The notes under the pieces are model-generated. The model was not told the origin of the DNA. It was given only the letters and a program-made list of their open reading frames with translations, and did not search any database. Made by a program: the position numbers and the translations under genes. From a virus, in the IMG/VR virus record IMGVR_UViG_3300036846_000895, positions 1 through 28,508 of that record: a stretch of DNA of 28,508 nt. One strand, 5' to 3'. This document shows, piece after piece, positions 79 through 21,066 of this stretch (positions are counted from its first letter, which is position 1; every line of letters begins with the position of its first letter).

Positions 79-94
79 TGTTTCACGTGGAACA
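79..94. promoter_or_regulatory. parS-like centromere site (ParB binding)
   Basis: The 16 bases TGTTTCACGTGGAACA are, on the minus strand, TGTTCCACGTGAAACA, the canonical Bacillus subtilis parS (Spo0J/ParB) site, with no mismatch. parS is highly conserved across bacteria, including actinobacteria. It is framed by a second inverted repeat, CCACCG (72-77) and CGGTGG (97-102), centred almost on the same point. No ParA or stand-alone ParB gene is in the window, so binding by host ParB or by a phage ParB encoded elsewhere are both possible. The sequence match is direct; function is inferred. Confidence 0.75.
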
Positions 95-106
95 CACGGT
101 GGCGGC

Positions 107-128
107 GGGGGGAGGTTGCCCTCCCCCC
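107..128 (-). terminator. GC-rich hairpin after the leftward gene, GCAA loop
   Basis: Nine-base-pair perfect stem (107-115 with 120-128) around a 4-base loop that reads GCAA in the leftward transcript, a GNRA tetraloop. It begins 7 nt beyond the stop codon of the gene at 136-363. There is no U-tract, so it may act as a weak terminator or as a 3'-end stabiliser. The hairpin at 402-421 has the same design. Confidence 0.6.
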
Positions 129-135
129 GGAGCCG

Positions 136-363
136 TCACGCCTCGGTGCGGTGCACCCAGATGTGCTCGGTCTTGCCCTCCTCGAGCGGGAAGGAGTACT
201 TGCCTTCATCGCCCTCGTTGCAGATCAGCTCCCACGCCGCTTGACGTGGCGACAACCCACGACCGTGCTCGACGCTGATCGTGCCGACGACCCGCTCGAC
301 CACGACGTCGAACGTGTAACCGAACCCGTCGTCGTCGATGTTGCTGGTGGTCTTCGTGTTCAC
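136..363 (-). CDS. Small hypothetical protein (75 aa)
   Basis: The GTG start at 363 is preceded by AAGGAG with 6-7 nt spacing, which decides it over the longer upstream reading. The rest of that reading crosses a hairpin and is low-complexity Arg-rich. The product begins VNTKTTSNIDDDGFGYTFDV and ends ...EHIWVHRTEA. It is acidic, with no membrane segment or recognised motif. A central stretch (LSPRQAAWELICNEGDEG) looks like a short amphipathic helix. It lies downstream of the 432-752 gene in the same direction, and both have their own 3' hairpin. Function unknown; accessory host-takeover or regulatory roles would fit but are not shown. Confidence 0.75.
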   Translation of the reverse strand: MNTKTTSNIDDDGFGYTFDVVVERVVGTISVEHGRGLSPRQAAWELICNEGDEGKYSFPLEEGKTEHIWVHRTEA

Positions 364-431: not shown

Positions 432-752
432 CTACGCCGTCGCTGTGGGCTTCCTGTCCGCCTTGGCGTTCGGGAGCGGCCAATCGCGGCGGATCATCTC
501 CGCCTCGGCCGTCGCCTTGCGCCTCGCGTCTCCCGACCGGTACTCGGCGAAGAGGAGCGACTTCCGCTTCGCGTCGTGACCGGGGACCCACCAGCCGCCG
601 CTGGTCTTGCCGCCGCAGCCGCATTCGCAGCTGCGCCCATCCACCGACTTAGGCGCCGTGATCGTCAGGATCGTCCCGACGGCCTGGGCCTCGCCTGTGA
701 GGAGCTTGGCAGCCTCCTGGGTCTCCGCTGTGACCTCGTGCTGTGTGCGCAT
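432..752 (-). CDS. Small Cys-rich phage protein (106 aa)
   Basis: ATG at 752 has GGAG six bases upstream, which rules out the longer readings further right. Product starts MRTQHEVTAETQEAAKLL. The central motif CECGCGGKTSGGWWVPGHDAKR (split here: CECGCGGKT then SGGWWVPGHDAKR) resembles a short CxCGCGGxT...PGHDAK signature that recurs in small actinophage proteins. The three cysteines could bind a metal. Both flanks are helical and basic. Function is not established for this family to my knowledge. Transcription probably starts at the extended -10 promoter at 834-842 or the stronger promoter at 1576-1604. Confidence 0.8.
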   Translation of the reverse strand: MRTQHEVTAETQEAAKLLTGEAQAVGTILTITAPKSVDGRSCECGCGGKTSGGWWVPGHDAKRKSLLFAEYRSGDARRKATAEAEMIRRDWPLPNAKADRKPTATA

Positions 753-1575: not shown

Positions 1576-1604
1576 ATTGTACCACGGCCTGGACCCGCTG
1601 TCAA
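1576..1604 (-). promoter_or_regulatory. Leftward sigma-70-type promoter
   Basis: On the minus strand TTGACA (1604-1599) and TACAAT (1581-1576) are separated by exactly 17 bp. That is a perfect -35 and a five-of-six -10. RNA would start near 1569 and run about 800 nt before the ATG at 752, giving an unusually long leader or a non-coding RNA. It is divergent from the promoter at 1637-1665. Confidence 0.65.
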
Positions 1605-1636: not shown

Positions 1637-1665
1637 TTGACGGAGAGTCCTCGGCGTGTTATGAT
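1637..1665 (+). promoter_or_regulatory. Rightward promoter for the late module
   Basis: TTGACG (1637-1642) and TATGAT (1660-1665) are separated by 17 bp, close to the sigma-70/HrdB-SigA consensus. RNA would start near 1672, about 20 nt before the ATG at 1692. It is the only clear promoter before the terminase and probably serves the whole rightward block. Confidence 0.7.
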
Positions 1666-1691: not shown

Positions 1692-1907
1692 ATGCCATAC
1701 GCTCGAGACTATAAAGCGTTAGGCGTCAAGCACTACAAACTCAGTCCTTTCGTTGTTGACGTAGCGCACACTCTCGTGCAGCTTCCGGATGGAGAGTTGA
1801 TGACTACTTGTTGGTGCGAGCGCCAGTACGTGCGCGTGCGTAAAGAAGAATTGTTCGCCGGATACACCAATTCTTGCGGACATAAGGAGTGCGTAGAGCA
1901 TGCCTAA
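1692..1907 (+). CDS. Small zinc-binding-type protein before terminase (71 aa)
   Basis: The first gene after the rightward promoter. The C-terminal half carries CWC (around residues 41-43) and SCGHKEC (around 61-67), a four-cysteine arrangement with one His that looks like a small zinc ribbon. The rest is basic and β-strand-like (YVRVRKEELFAGY). The ATG lies about 20 nt after the expected RNA start with only a weak AGG upstream. Its TAA overlaps the terminase start by 8 nt, so the two are probably translationally coupled. A packaging-related DNA-binding or regulatory role fits the position, but no known family was recognised. Confidence 0.7.
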   Translation: MPYARDYKALGVKHYKLSPFVVDVAHTLVQLPDGELMTTCWCERQYVRVRKEELFAGYTNSCGHKECVEHA

Positions 1908-3681
1908 GTCTGTGGTGCCCGGCAAGATCGACCAGATGACCCAGCGTGAGAATCTGGCAGATTCGACCGGGATCTGGGCGGCGATGTCGCCTCCTGGGAT
2001 TATGCAGCCCAACACGTTCAACATGATCCAGACGATGGAGAAATTTCTGATTCTGAGGCTGCAGGGCTACACGATTGTCCAGGCATGCGATATGGTCGGC
2101 ATCATGCGGAAGACCTACGAGAAGTGGAGGCCTCGTTACCCCGAGTTCCGTGAGCTGCACGACTCTCTCCTTACTGAGATTAGAATTCGAAAGGAAGAAC
2201 CACTCAGGAAAGACGACTTCGCCACTTTCCGCGGTCGTTACTTCAAGATGATGAGTCCGCCGTTCCACCTGCGGATGATCTACGCGCTCGAGCATTCGAA
2301 GCCAGGGTCGGTGACGATGATCCTGGTCCCGCCGAATCATGGTAAGACGACAATGCTCACCGACTGGATCAACTGGAAGCTCGCATACGATGCGAACCAT
2401 CGGATCCTGTATATCTCGGAGTCGAGTAAGTTGGCGGCGAAAGTGATCGGTCGAGTGAAGCGGAGGATGACCGACACAGCGATCGCTCCGCAGTACATCT
2501 CGGAGTTCGGGCCTTTCTATCAGGTCGGCCAGGAGAAGTTCGGACGACCGTGGGCTGCTGAGTTCATGACAGTGTGCAACTCCACCCATGACGAGCAGGA
2601 CTATTCCTTAGAAGCGATGGGTTGGGTGAGCCAGATCTATGGAGTTCGTTCGGATACGATTGTCCTCGACGACTACCAAACTTTGCGTACTGCGGAGAAG
2701 GGGAACACTACCGAGGCAATGGTCGACAAGTTCCAGCAGGACATCTACACCCGAATCGATCCGAATGAAGGCCGAATTGTCATCATTGGCACGCGGGTTG
2801 CCCAGACCGACTTCTACGTGAAGCTCTTAGATCAGGGCGACGTGGTGGATGACGTGATCGTGATGCCTGCGATCGACTGGAAGGGTAACGCGCTGTGGAA
2901 TGACCGCCTCCCACTCGAGAAGCTCGAGCAGGTTCGGAAGAAGGTGGGACCGAAAATCTGGTCTCGAGCTTACCAGATGGCGCCTCAAGACGATGGCGCA
3001 GCGACGTTCCAAGTAGAAGTTGTCCAGGATTGCCGCCGATCGGATTTTAGAGTTCTGCAACCCGCTGAAATCGAGGAGGACGTATGGGCGTCGATCGATC
3101 CCGCTATCGACAAATACACGGCCCTGACTGCCGCTGCCGTCTCTGTTTCCCACCTGAGGCTGATGATGGCGGAGCATCACTTCGAGCTAGCGACCGGCGA
3201 GGCAATCCTGAGTCGAATCTTCACGACTTGGCAGCGCACTCACTTCACCAAGCTCATCGTCGAGGCCGTGTCGTTCCAGAAAGCGCTAGCAAGGGACGAA
3301 CGTCTCGAGAAGATGAGGCGTGAATGTGGATTCACGATCGTTGAGCACACCACCGCCTCGAACAAGCTGGATCAGACGTTCGGTGTCGCACGTATGGCGT
3401 CGAGCTTCATTGACCAGACCATTTGGATACCTGCGTCTGATGCAGAATCCGAGAAAGCGTTCCAGGATCTCATTGGCGAACTAGTGGCTTGGCGTGCTAC
3501 AATTCCCACACGCCTGCGCACGCAAGACCTCGTGATGAGCCTCTGGTTCCTTTGGATCAAGTGGCAGCAGTTCCGCAAAGAACACGAGTCCAAGGTTACA
3601 GCTATCACGACAGCCGGGGATCCGTTCAGTCCGACAGGTTACAAAACCGGGATGTTCACATATGACCGGATTCTCCGATAG
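1900..3681 (+). CDS. terL: Terminase large subunit
   Basis: Packaging ATPase/nuclease of 593 aa, usual length for the family. An N-terminal helix-turn-helix-like segment (residues about 47-85, around GYTIVQACDMVGIMRKTYEKW) resembles a recognition domain normally found in a small terminase. Walker A is the deviant VPPNHGKTT (143-151), Walker B is TIVLDDYQ (253-260) and the coupling motif is IIGTR (295-299). The RNase H-like nuclease half shows SIDPAID (398-404), VEA (454-456) and a late acidic DLVMSLWFLW near 545. AAGGAG lies about 10 nt before ATG 1900. No separate small terminase gene is evident in the window, so the N-terminal HTH may replace it or the gene lies elsewhere. The next gene (HNH) starts inside its 3' end. 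Confidence 0.93.
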   Translation: MPKSVVPGKIDQMTQRENLADSTGIWAAMSPPGIMQPNTFNMIQTMEKFLILRLQGYTIVQACDMVGIMRKTYEKWRPRYPEFRELHDSLLTEIRIRKEEPLRKDDFATFRGRYFKMMSPPFHLRMIYALEHSKPGSVTMILVPPNHGKTTMLTDWINWKLAYDANHRILYISESSKLAAKVIGRVKRRMTDTAIAPQYISEFGPFYQVGQEKFGRPWAAEFMTVCNSTHDEQDYSLEAMGWVSQIYGVRSDTIVLDDYQTLRTAEKGNTTEAMVDKFQQDIYTRIDPNEGRIVIIGTRVAQTDFYVKLLDQGDVVDDVIVMPAIDWKGNALWNDRLPLEKLEQVRKKVGPKIWSRAYQMAPQDDGAATFQVEVVQDCRRSDFRVLQPAEIEEDVWASIDPAIDKYTALTAAAVSVSHLRLMMAEHHFELATGEAILSRIFTTWQRTHFTKLIVEAVSFQKALARDERLEKMRRECGFTIVEHTTASNKLDQTFGVARMASSFIDQTIWIPASDAESEKAFQDLIGELVAWRATIPTRLRTQDLVMSLWFLWIKWQQFRKEHESKVTAITTAGDPFSPTGYKTGMFTYDRILR

Positions 3682-6443: not shown

Positions 6444-9400
6444 GCTTTCTCGATAGACTCGGCAAGACGGTCAGTGGGTTCTGGGGTGCGGTGGAAGAAC
6501 CGACATACGGTCTTGTCCAGGACATCGCTGGAGACACACAAGGTCAAAGCGATTATTCGCTCGGCAGTTTTTTCCATGCCATAGTGAACGATGCCACCCA
6601 GCGTGGTGCTGACACGCTGCAGAATGTCTTTGGTCCTGAGGGTGCGATCGGTGCGCCGGTTGGTGGACTCCCTGATTTTGCGCGAGTTCCGGGACGTTAC
6701 ACAGTCCGGCCGGTCATGGATGCAGATCAGTGGGCATATTCCCATGGTATCTCGCATCCGTTAGCTACGGCGCTGTATGTGGGATCGCTCGCTGAGTCGA
6801 GCATTTGGACTGGTCAGCATGGCCATAGTCCGGGCGATCCGGGTGTTCTTTTCGATCCGCAGGCTTGGTATGATTCCTGGGAGATGACCAATCACAAGTC
6901 GCCTGGTCAGGCGCTTGCTGAGAACATACACTTCGGCCTCCTGCCCTCATTCGGTTTCGACCGCGGTAAGGTCGATATCATGAATCAGGGTGAGGTTAAC
7001 AAGTTCGATGGGTCTGATTTCTATAAGGCAACATCGGGATTGACCGATGCTCTCGCTTTCAGAAAAATCCTCGATCCAGCATCTCTGGCAGGAGATTTTG
7101 GTGCTGCGTATTTTGAAGGAGTCAGGGGGCCGATTGAGGAAGTCGGGGTCGCGAAGGCTGCTGAGAAGACTGCGACAAAGGAAGCTCTGAGGGGGGGTGC
7201 GACGCCAGAGGAGGCAACGGCTGCGGGTGCTGCAGCAAGCTCTGCGGCGGGTGTGGCGTCTCGTCAGTCGACGATAAGTCAGTATTTGGCTTCTCCTAGG
7301 TGGGATGCGCTCAGCTCGGTTCTACAGAGGGTCCGTGAGACTATTCCAGATGTTAATCAGCGGGCGGCCTACATTAAGAATCGCGTGCTTCGGGATCCGA
7401 TCAGCTACGACGCTGCGGGAGCATTGGCGCAATCTTCTGGTCCAGCGATGGATCAGACGGTCATTCAGGCAATGATGGGTGATAATCGAGTCATTAGGCA
7501 GATCGCTGAGAATGACCCAGCCCTGTCTGAGCGCTTGCGGGTCAAGGTCGAGGATCAGGCGATGATGCATGATCCGACATATACGCCGGAGTGGCATCAG
7601 TCTAATCTGTACAATCCTGATGCGAATCCTGCGGCGGACGCGGATGCGACAATGCAGGCTTTGGATGCTAACGAGAGGCTGCAGCGGATTACCGGTGAGT
7701 TGAGGTACGAGCCGCAGGCTCAAGGTGCGTTATACCACCTTTCCCATCCATTGCAGAGCCAGTTTTTCCAGGCGTCGCCGTATACACGCCCATTGCGGAT
7801 TTTTACGAACACCGTGCCGACCGGCATCATCAATCTGGGTGATCCTCGATATGTCGACCAGGTGCGCTACAATCTGCGCCAGGCTGGTATGTCTTTGGAG
7901 GATCAGGACAAATGGGTTGGTAAGCTTGCGAATGCTCCGTTGCAGGACCAGACTTTGGCGGATGGTACGACAGTTCCGGGTCGGTTGACGTTGGTGAAGC
8001 AAGCTGAGCAGGCGGGTCTACAGCTGGTTGCTGATCGGCATGGAATTCATCCTGACGATTTGAAGGGAATATCGTCGGGAGCGGAAGAATACAGGCAGAA
8101 AGCAATCAACGCGGTTCAGCAGGCAACTCAGATGGGCAACGACTACGTGAAGATCCAGCTTCCCTTCGATGACCAGCTGGAACAAGTGATCATGCCGAGG
8201 CCGACGAATCCGACGGACATCTACACGATGACTAACTTCCCCAAGGTTGAGGATCAGTTCAGCAAGTACCATCAGTTCATGGATGAGCATGGGCGTGTAC
8301 CTCAGACGTTGATTAACGGCTCGATGAGCATGTGGCGTGCGGGTGTGCTTCTGCGACCGGCATGGCCTGTCCGTATTATGGGGGAACACGGATTGGCGAT
8401 GGCGGCCAAGATGCAGGATCTGGCGATGGGTTCTTCGGAACTCATGAAGGGCATGAAAGATTATGCTTCATGGAAGAACGGGTTGAAGAATTACTGGGTT
8501 CATGCCAGTGATGCGCTGAATCTCGGTTGGGGTGGTGGAACCGGGGCGTTGTTTGGCGGCATCGTGGCTGGACCGCTTGGTGCGCTGGCCGGTGGAGCAC
8601 TTGGAACGGGTGCTCAGGTTTTGGGCCGTTCTCTCGATGAGGTTCCATATAAGCAGCTCGAGGTCAACGGCTATTTGGCTCATGAGGTCTTTGGACATCC
8701 GCTCGATACCAATGATGTACACAAGAACATTGTTACATACAACAATGACCTTGCTGCGGCTCGTGGCATTGATGCATCCAAAGATACGTACCGGGCGTCG
8801 ATCGATAATCGGCCAGAGCCGAACGATCTCACGCATACGTCGATCATGCCTGGTAACGATGCATACAATAGCGAGTGGGAGCGCATTGTCAACCAAGACA
8901 TCGGCAAAGACCCGCTTGCTCGAGTGATGCTCGCTCACGATCTAAATATGGGTGAGCCGATCTACACTCCGCCCGGTGAGCAGGTTGGATGGCGAGCGGG
9001 GGCTGGCTATCGATTCCCGGGCGAAAGTCTTGAGGGCAAAGATGGGGCGGAAGTTGGGCGTTTGTGGCTCGAGCACACGCCGGAGGGTCGTGCATGGGCC
9101 AAGCAAAATCCGATTCGTGCTCGGGATCCAGAGGCGTGGACGGAGACACTCTCTGAGCTGACCCACAATACGTTGGCCCTGCACGACGACCTTGGAAGGA
9201 AGCTCATCCGTGAGGGCCATCTGAACATTGATGATCTGCAGCGGGCAGTTTCGCCTACCGACAAGTTTGCTCAGCAAGAAGTAGAGGCGTGGGTTAATCA
9301 GCATGTTCGGTCACAAAGTCCTGGGGATCCACTGCGAAAGTCTAACAGTTTCCTCGCGGATCAATACAATGTTCCAATTCATAGGGTTGAAGAGATTCGC

Positions 9401-20172: not shown

Positions 20173-21066
20173 ATGCTGATCCAAGAGCTGATCGATGACT
20201 TGCTCAACGAGACGTTGCTCGGCACCTATCGTGCGCACTTCAACCAGCTCCTGAATCCGATATCTGATACGGATTCAGTCCTTACGGTGATTCATCCCTT
20301 CGCCGGAGTAGGCGATGGTTCCTATCTGGAAATCGAACAGGAACTCATGTATGTGGTTCCCAAGGGGATCAACCAGACAGCCAAGACAGCAGTCGTCATC
20401 CGGGGAGTCCGAGGAACGACGGCTGTCCCCCATGTAGCCAATCTCGGGGTTTCGCTTAACCCGCGATTCGCTCGATCGGTCATTCTCGCCTCGATGCAAG
20501 AAGAAGCCAGATCATGGCCGATTTCCATGTTTCAGGTGCAACAGATCGACATATCTCTGCCAGCATCGGTTTCATCGATTGACCTGGCGACTGCTTTGGA
20601 CAGCGATAAGATCATTCGCACGGTACGGGTGTGGAGACGAGCAGACGATCCTGACGTGAATCGCTGGATTCCACTGAATGGTTGGCGCTTTGAAAAAGAC
20701 CTGTTCCAGGCAGGATCCGCTGATCTCTTTTTGGCCAAGATCTACGACCAGGGACGAGAAATTCGTATTCTGGTTGCCCTTCCATTTGATGATCCGGCAG
20801 GATGGACCGAATTGTCACCACTTAGTGATTCGGGGATTCCTGATTCAGCTGCTGACGTACTTAAGTATGGCGCAGCCTGGCGGTTGATCACAGGACGTGA
20901 GGCTCGTCGGCTTTTCACTGAAATCGAGAGCGAGGGCCGCAATTCGCAAGAGGTTCCAGCGGGGACTAATCTCGCACTCGGGCGGAACTTGAAGCTCGTG
21001 CGTGACGGTCGGCTGGCTGAGGAAATCTCGCGGCTGCGCTCGCTATACGGAGTGTATGGCCGATGA
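20173..21066 (+). CDS. Head-tail connector/tail adaptor-like protein (297 aa)
   Basis: AGGAGG is five bases before ATG 20173. N-terminus LIQELIDDLLNETLLGTYR is helical. A β-module with VVIRGVRGTTAVPHVANLG (about residues 74-92) shares its pattern with the capsid and second fibre proteins. The C-terminal half contains VLKYGAAWRLITGREARRLF, a helical segment like those in phage adaptor proteins. It is followed at an ATGA overlap by the nozzle-like gene. A T7 gp11-like adaptor role is inferred from order and length, not from a diagnostic motif. Confidence 0.65.
   Translation: MLIQELIDDLLNETLLGTYRAHFNQLLNPISDTDSVLTVIHPFAGVGDGSYLEIEQELMYVVPKGINQTAKTAVVIRGVRGTTAVPHVANLGVSLNPRFARSVILASMQEEARSWPISMFQVQQIDISLPASVSSIDLATALDSDKIIRTVRVWRRADDPDVNRWIPLNGWRFEKDLFQAGSADLFLAKIYDQGREIRILVALPFDDPAGWTELSPLSDSGIPDSAADVLKYGAAWRLITGREARRLFTEIESEGRNSQEVPAGTNLALGRNLKLVRDGRLAEEISRLRSLYGVYGR

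Follow-up and report, generated by a model that had tools for sequence, protein, structure and literature searches.

Among the closest described systems is that of phage phi29, whose chromosome is carried into the spore by the host Spo0J, as stated in a passage of PMC9437464 that cites Meijer et al. 2005. The phi29 genome holds five parS-family sites within one mismatch, four of which are exact copies of GTTTCACGTGGAAC. Sites are also present in two phi29-like phages of hosts not known to form endospores, namely Voltaire (Glutamicibacter), with two adjacent parS copies, and Athos (Enterococcus), with one exact copy, from which we infer that spore entrapment is not the whole story. The Voltaire pair (8742-8776 of record L289) is separated by 19 bp and is flanked by the amidase and the major tail genes. 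In SGI1, parS-like sites were shown by experiment to borrow the ParB of the IncC helper plasmid, and the helper is disturbed (PMC10954446). Complete parABS systems are carried by some mycobacteriophages and Gordonia phages, as described in parts of PMC7157519 and PMC10586128, and the cassette of phage RedRock consists of directly repeated 8-bp motifs beside parA and parB (PMC7157519).

The window, by which we mean the whole stretch of DNA analysed, is a linear, incomplete virus fragment of 28,508 bases with 57.8% G+C. It contains the phage hallmark genes for terminase, major head protein, tape measure and tail fibre, which bears out the label of phage genome given to it in an earlier note. The terminase large subunit gene (1900-3681, plus strand) starts the rightward structural genes and adjoins a block of leftward genes, beyond whose end the parS-type site is found. 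The leftward genes include one of 106 aa (432-752, minus strand), with relatives in Arthrobacter, Streptomyces and Microbacterium phages, and a predicted one of 75 aa (136-363, minus strand), with a GTG start and an upstream AAGGAG that we read as a ribosome-binding site. A promoter-like TTGACA-17-TACAAT (1576-1604, minus strand), recognized by its match to the consensus, may drive these genes towards parS, and a divergent promoter-like TTGACG-17-TATGAT (1637-1665, plus strand), also a consensus match, faces the terminase. A stretch of about 800 bp (754-1570), which separates the leftward genes from the divergent promoters, has no convincing gene and may hold a leader, a packaging site or a small RNA. 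For the terminase and for one structural protein, the nearest named relatives are Streptomyces phage proteins. Because these proteins and that encoded at 432-752 have their relatives among actinophage proteins (Arthrobacter, Streptomyces, Microbacterium), the host is probably an actinobacterium; tRNA and Pfam searches of the window gave no match informative on the host.

Positions 79-94 of the window read TGTTTCACGTGGAACA on the plus strand and TGTTCCACGTGAAACA on the minus strand. The minus strand agrees with the chromosome-type parS consensus TGTTNCACGTGAAACA at 16 of 16 positions, confirming the exact canonical site that had been reported there, while the plus strand has one mismatch. This is the single exact parS in the 28.5-kb fragment; the other best parS-like sites, such as those at 20528 and 13915, have one to three mismatches and are apparently coding. 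The site is located in noncoding DNA (1-135), 79 bp from the contig end, a region where assembly errors concentrate, and on a contig that its terminase and capsid genes mark as viral, rather than in a chromosomal origin domain. Markov models of orders 1 to 3 gave an expectation of about 2-3e-5 copies of the four-variant motif TGTTYCACGTGRAACA per window, which is of the same order as the earlier chance figure of 1 in 75,000. This low expected number is by itself no proof of function, because many windows were read and rare matches get picked in such a reading.

A 16-mer that resembles parS by chance, with no reader during infection, is accordingly an alternative to be weighed, and its case is helped by the single copy and by the distant relatives, which are without the site. 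Searches for close relatives, by megablast of 24 kb and by IMG/VR scans with the terminase, capsid and structural proteins, turned up no relative above about 31% protein identity. No parS within one mismatch was present in 80 distant terminase-homologue loci (0.8 Mb, taken from the terminase alignment), or in six Beephvirinae genomes and ct2KA10. Control palindromes, moreover, also have matches among the 2.9 million contigs of IMG/VR (37 stretches). Against chance stand the excess of parS over such controls in two collections, described below, and the position of the site in noncoding DNA, within an inverted repeat of the kind seen in Gordonia phages. On balance we regard a chance match as unlikely, although it deserves to be taken seriously.

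Of the 50,697 phage records of INPHARED, 147 contain the exact asymmetric 16-mer and 286 its symmetric counterpart, while scrambled control palindromes of like composition were found in 0 and 4 records; the records are redundant, yet the matches are spread over many genera. Carriers include Salasvirus, Korravirus, Otagovirus, Bixiavirus, Jesfedecavirus, Lidleunavirus, Orchidvirus and Quhwahvirus, together with Listeria phages, Lactobacillus phages and microviruses. Since this search was run at a BLAST E-value of 8, its strength lies in the matched controls and not in the E-value. In IMG/VR, TGTTYCACGTGRAACA was present in at least 120 stretches, as was the exact asymmetric parS alone, compared with 37 (a complete count) for a scrambled control palindrome similar in composition. 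Among the matches listed, 62 of 147 parS sites were intergenic versus 8 of 37 control sites (p=0.02). That parS exceeds its controls in both collections indicates that most exact intergenic phage matches are not due to chance, and these collection-wide controls support function more strongly than the odds calculated for the window. Orphan sites are thus common in phages, and the uniqueness that the earlier note attached to this one was overstated. The exact 16-mer also occurs in actinobacterial chromosomes, for example of Microbacterium and Streptomyces, among the matches listed.

The carriers differ in how the site is placed and repeated. In phiPsa374 and other Otagovirus phages the exact 16-mer is within the direct terminal repeats (record L260, 389-404; KJ409772, 98151-98164), so that every packaged genome carries a copy at either end, and Vibrio phage phi 3 has two parS sites per terminal repeat. 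Many microviruses of 4-6 kb have an exact parS, often intergenic (examples are PQ006149, KT264806, MG945234 and Spiroplasma phage 4), and some have multiple copies, with as many as 12 places, counted per strand, in bajarodino virus 6. One IMG/VR contig (L173, 8906-13000) contains 11 exact asymmetric copies within about 5 kb, and two others (L032 and L085) contain five symmetric copies apiece. In Quhwahvirus (Microbacterium) phages, parS falls within the gene of a helix-turn-helix protein (record L290, 1501-1516).

A search of the 28.5-kb fragment with the ParB_N domain (PF02195) gave no match, and the earlier observation that parA and parB are missing here therefore holds for ParB_N within the linear fragment. 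The RedRock type of arrangement, with parA and parB beside parS, was likewise not found in the window: the right-hand neighbours of the site are the small leftward genes and then the terminase, and the left neighbour lies off the contig. Read by eye up to where the contig ends, region 1-135 showed one dyad site and no array of 8-bp direct repeats. Given that the record is a fragment, and that parABS is known in the mycobacteriophages and Gordonia phages cited above, parA and parB of a phage-encoded cassette could be located in genome sequence that the record does not cover. RedRock-like cassettes, however, use 8-bp direct repeats by parA/parB and not the chromosomal 16-mer (PMC7157519). Most of the parS-bearing phages tested are also without ParB: the ParB_N domain was detected in 5 of 80 IMG/VR parS records, and 16 of 17 named phages lacked it, the exception being Shotgun, where a ParB_N protein is encoded at 48449-48706. 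All but one of these 17 (FlowerPower) carry parS. We therefore consider a cassette split by the end of the record very unlikely.

The immediate surroundings of the site are rich in dyad symmetry. An inverted repeat, CCACCG ... CGGTGG (72-102), flanks the 16-mer with 6-bp arms at offsets of 1 and 2 nt. Arms of this length or longer are rare: they were present at 2 of the 248 other IMG/VR sites compared, and the idea that phage parS generally sits in stems was rejected. Directly after the stop codon of the 75-aa gene, and thus between that codon and parS, is a strong G+C-rich hairpin, CCGGGGGGAGGGCAACCUCCCCCC (103-134, minus strand), which is terminator-like but has no T run. On the other side, 25 bp from parS, is an 18-bp dyad, CGTTCCAAGGTTGGAACG (37-54), the only palindrome with 8-bp arms in the window. 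Its arms, GTTCCA/TGGAAC, are those of parS, with a centre of 4 bp instead of 2, and it is a possible operator or altered parS.

These features would fit a mainly regulatory element at the 3' end of the leftward operon, either with host ParB or a phage DNA-binding protein acting as a roadblock, or with the stem acting as a terminator that has a parS core. The location of the site 42 bp after a stop codon and next to a strong hairpin, as well as the second dyad with identical arms, are consistent with this proposal, as is the repression by ParB of promoters near parS in Pseudomonas, as described in part of PMC5521831. The sites of Gordonia phages Orchid and Damp, too, are 3' of leftward genes, in longer palindromes. 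In contrast, the terminator place is already occupied by the hairpin at 103-134, an exact parS core is unnecessary for a terminator, and there is no T run. A mainly regulatory role thus seems rather improbable to us.

In two groups of cultured actinophages the site is conserved. GTTTCACGTGAAAC was present at about 24-25 kb and at 34-36 kb in all six Korravirus genomes compared (Korra, Glenn, Pumancara, Oxynfrius, DrRobert and Urla). The first site is an invariant 14 bp that adjoins a 12-bp indel and variable codons, and the second forms an island of 14 invariant bp within the short, variable intergenic gap between the DNA polymerase I and PurA-like genes. A third site, near the right end in some members, was rejected as strong support; alignment showed it to be coding, of single origin and absent from Pumancara, and because it is coding and of single origin we treat it as weak evidence. 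Orchid and Damp share the same 16-mer in otherwise non-homologous intergenic flanks, just 3' of the stop codon of a leftward gene and near the right genome end. In each of the two the site is framed by a perfect inverted repeat (8 and 10 bp), although the flanking sequences are not alike.

Our preferred reading, which we consider probable, is that 79-94 is a genuine orphan chromosome-type parS of the phi29 kind, readable by host ParB. From it we infer host ParB binding, spreading and benefit at the site. A ParB-CTP clamp of the host would load at 79-94, which would serve as a cis-acting nucleation site on phage DNA, and the loaded ParB would spread along this DNA and link it to ParA and SMC of the host. 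In this way the phage DNA, whether just injected or in replication, would be kept together with the host origin region and moved like it. The likely benefit would be that the phage genome is retained in a host that divides or becomes dormant before it is lysed, comparable to the spore entrapment of phi29. Weighing against this reading are the single copy in the fragment, the distant relatives that have no such site, the nearness of the contig end, and those matches in other phages that are coding and of single origin, such as the third Korravirus site. The earlier proposal of a real chromosome-type parS that could recruit host ParB is supported in this respect by the enrichment, the conservation elsewhere and the phi29 precedent, its claim to uniqueness apart. 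A decoy that titrates or misplaces ParB, and so upsets host chromosome segregation, would have a parallel in the disturbance of the helper plasmid by the SGI1 sites (PMC10954446). One or two sites per genome, however, would titrate little unless the copy number were very high, and hosts have several parS of their own, so that we give this explanation hardly any weight. The sequence does not settle the choice between segregation, decoy and regulator.

The occurrence of parS far above chance in unrelated phages suggests that host segregation machinery is borrowed. More broadly, and with somewhat less than even confidence, we propose that carriage of an orphan parS is a widespread selected trait, including among virulent phages of non-sporulating actinobacteria and firmicutes, and that host ParB and SMC are routinely recruited to incoming DNA. 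Were this so, the recruitment would help to position or compact the phage DNA or to carry it through division of the host, and the spore entrapment of phi29 would be one special case. The precedent is already known, and how widely it extends to phages of hosts that do not sporulate seems to be under-reported; a literature search of open-licence papers found no report of orphan parS across many unrelated phages. This wider result, with many unrelated orphan-parS phages and two conserved actinophage groups, is of more interest than the single site in the window. If host ParB loads on phage DNA, ParB-SMC would be a host factor in many infections, partition sites would join the host signals copied by phages, and there would be an explanation for the persistence of virulent phages that lack lysogeny genes in a dividing or dormant host. 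Since Korra, Orchid and Damp are cultured phages with conserved sites, the idea is directly testable.

When set beside the known systems, the window resembles the RedRock type in having a partition site on actinophage DNA, and differs from it in that RedRock-type phages have their own ParA and ParB with 8-bp direct repeats and are temperate and extrachromosomal (PMC7157519). With SGI1 it shares the arrangement of a mobile element that has a partition site and, for the window within the fragment, not the proteins, and that would rely on the ParB of another replicon, although SGI1 uses a plasmid-type parS and a plasmid ParB, as experimentally shown. Phi29 (Salasvirus) is virulent, has no ParB of its own and carries the same GTTTCACGTGGAAC form, but it has five sites in 19 kb and an endospore-forming host, while the window has one site in a 28.5-kb fragment and a putative actinobacterial host. 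The Korravirus phages of Arthrobacter are alike in being actinophages with no ParB found (for the window, within the fragment), with the chromosomal parS core and with the 432-752 protein family in the genus; they differ in having two or three sites, most of which lie in the non-structural genome half, and in another gene neighbourhood. Orchid and Damp resemble the window in that parS is 3' of a leftward gene, close to a genome end and in an inverted repeat, whereas their parS is symmetric and present in two copies, with longer arms (up to 10 bp). The window shows the Orchid and Damp layout in a shorter version.
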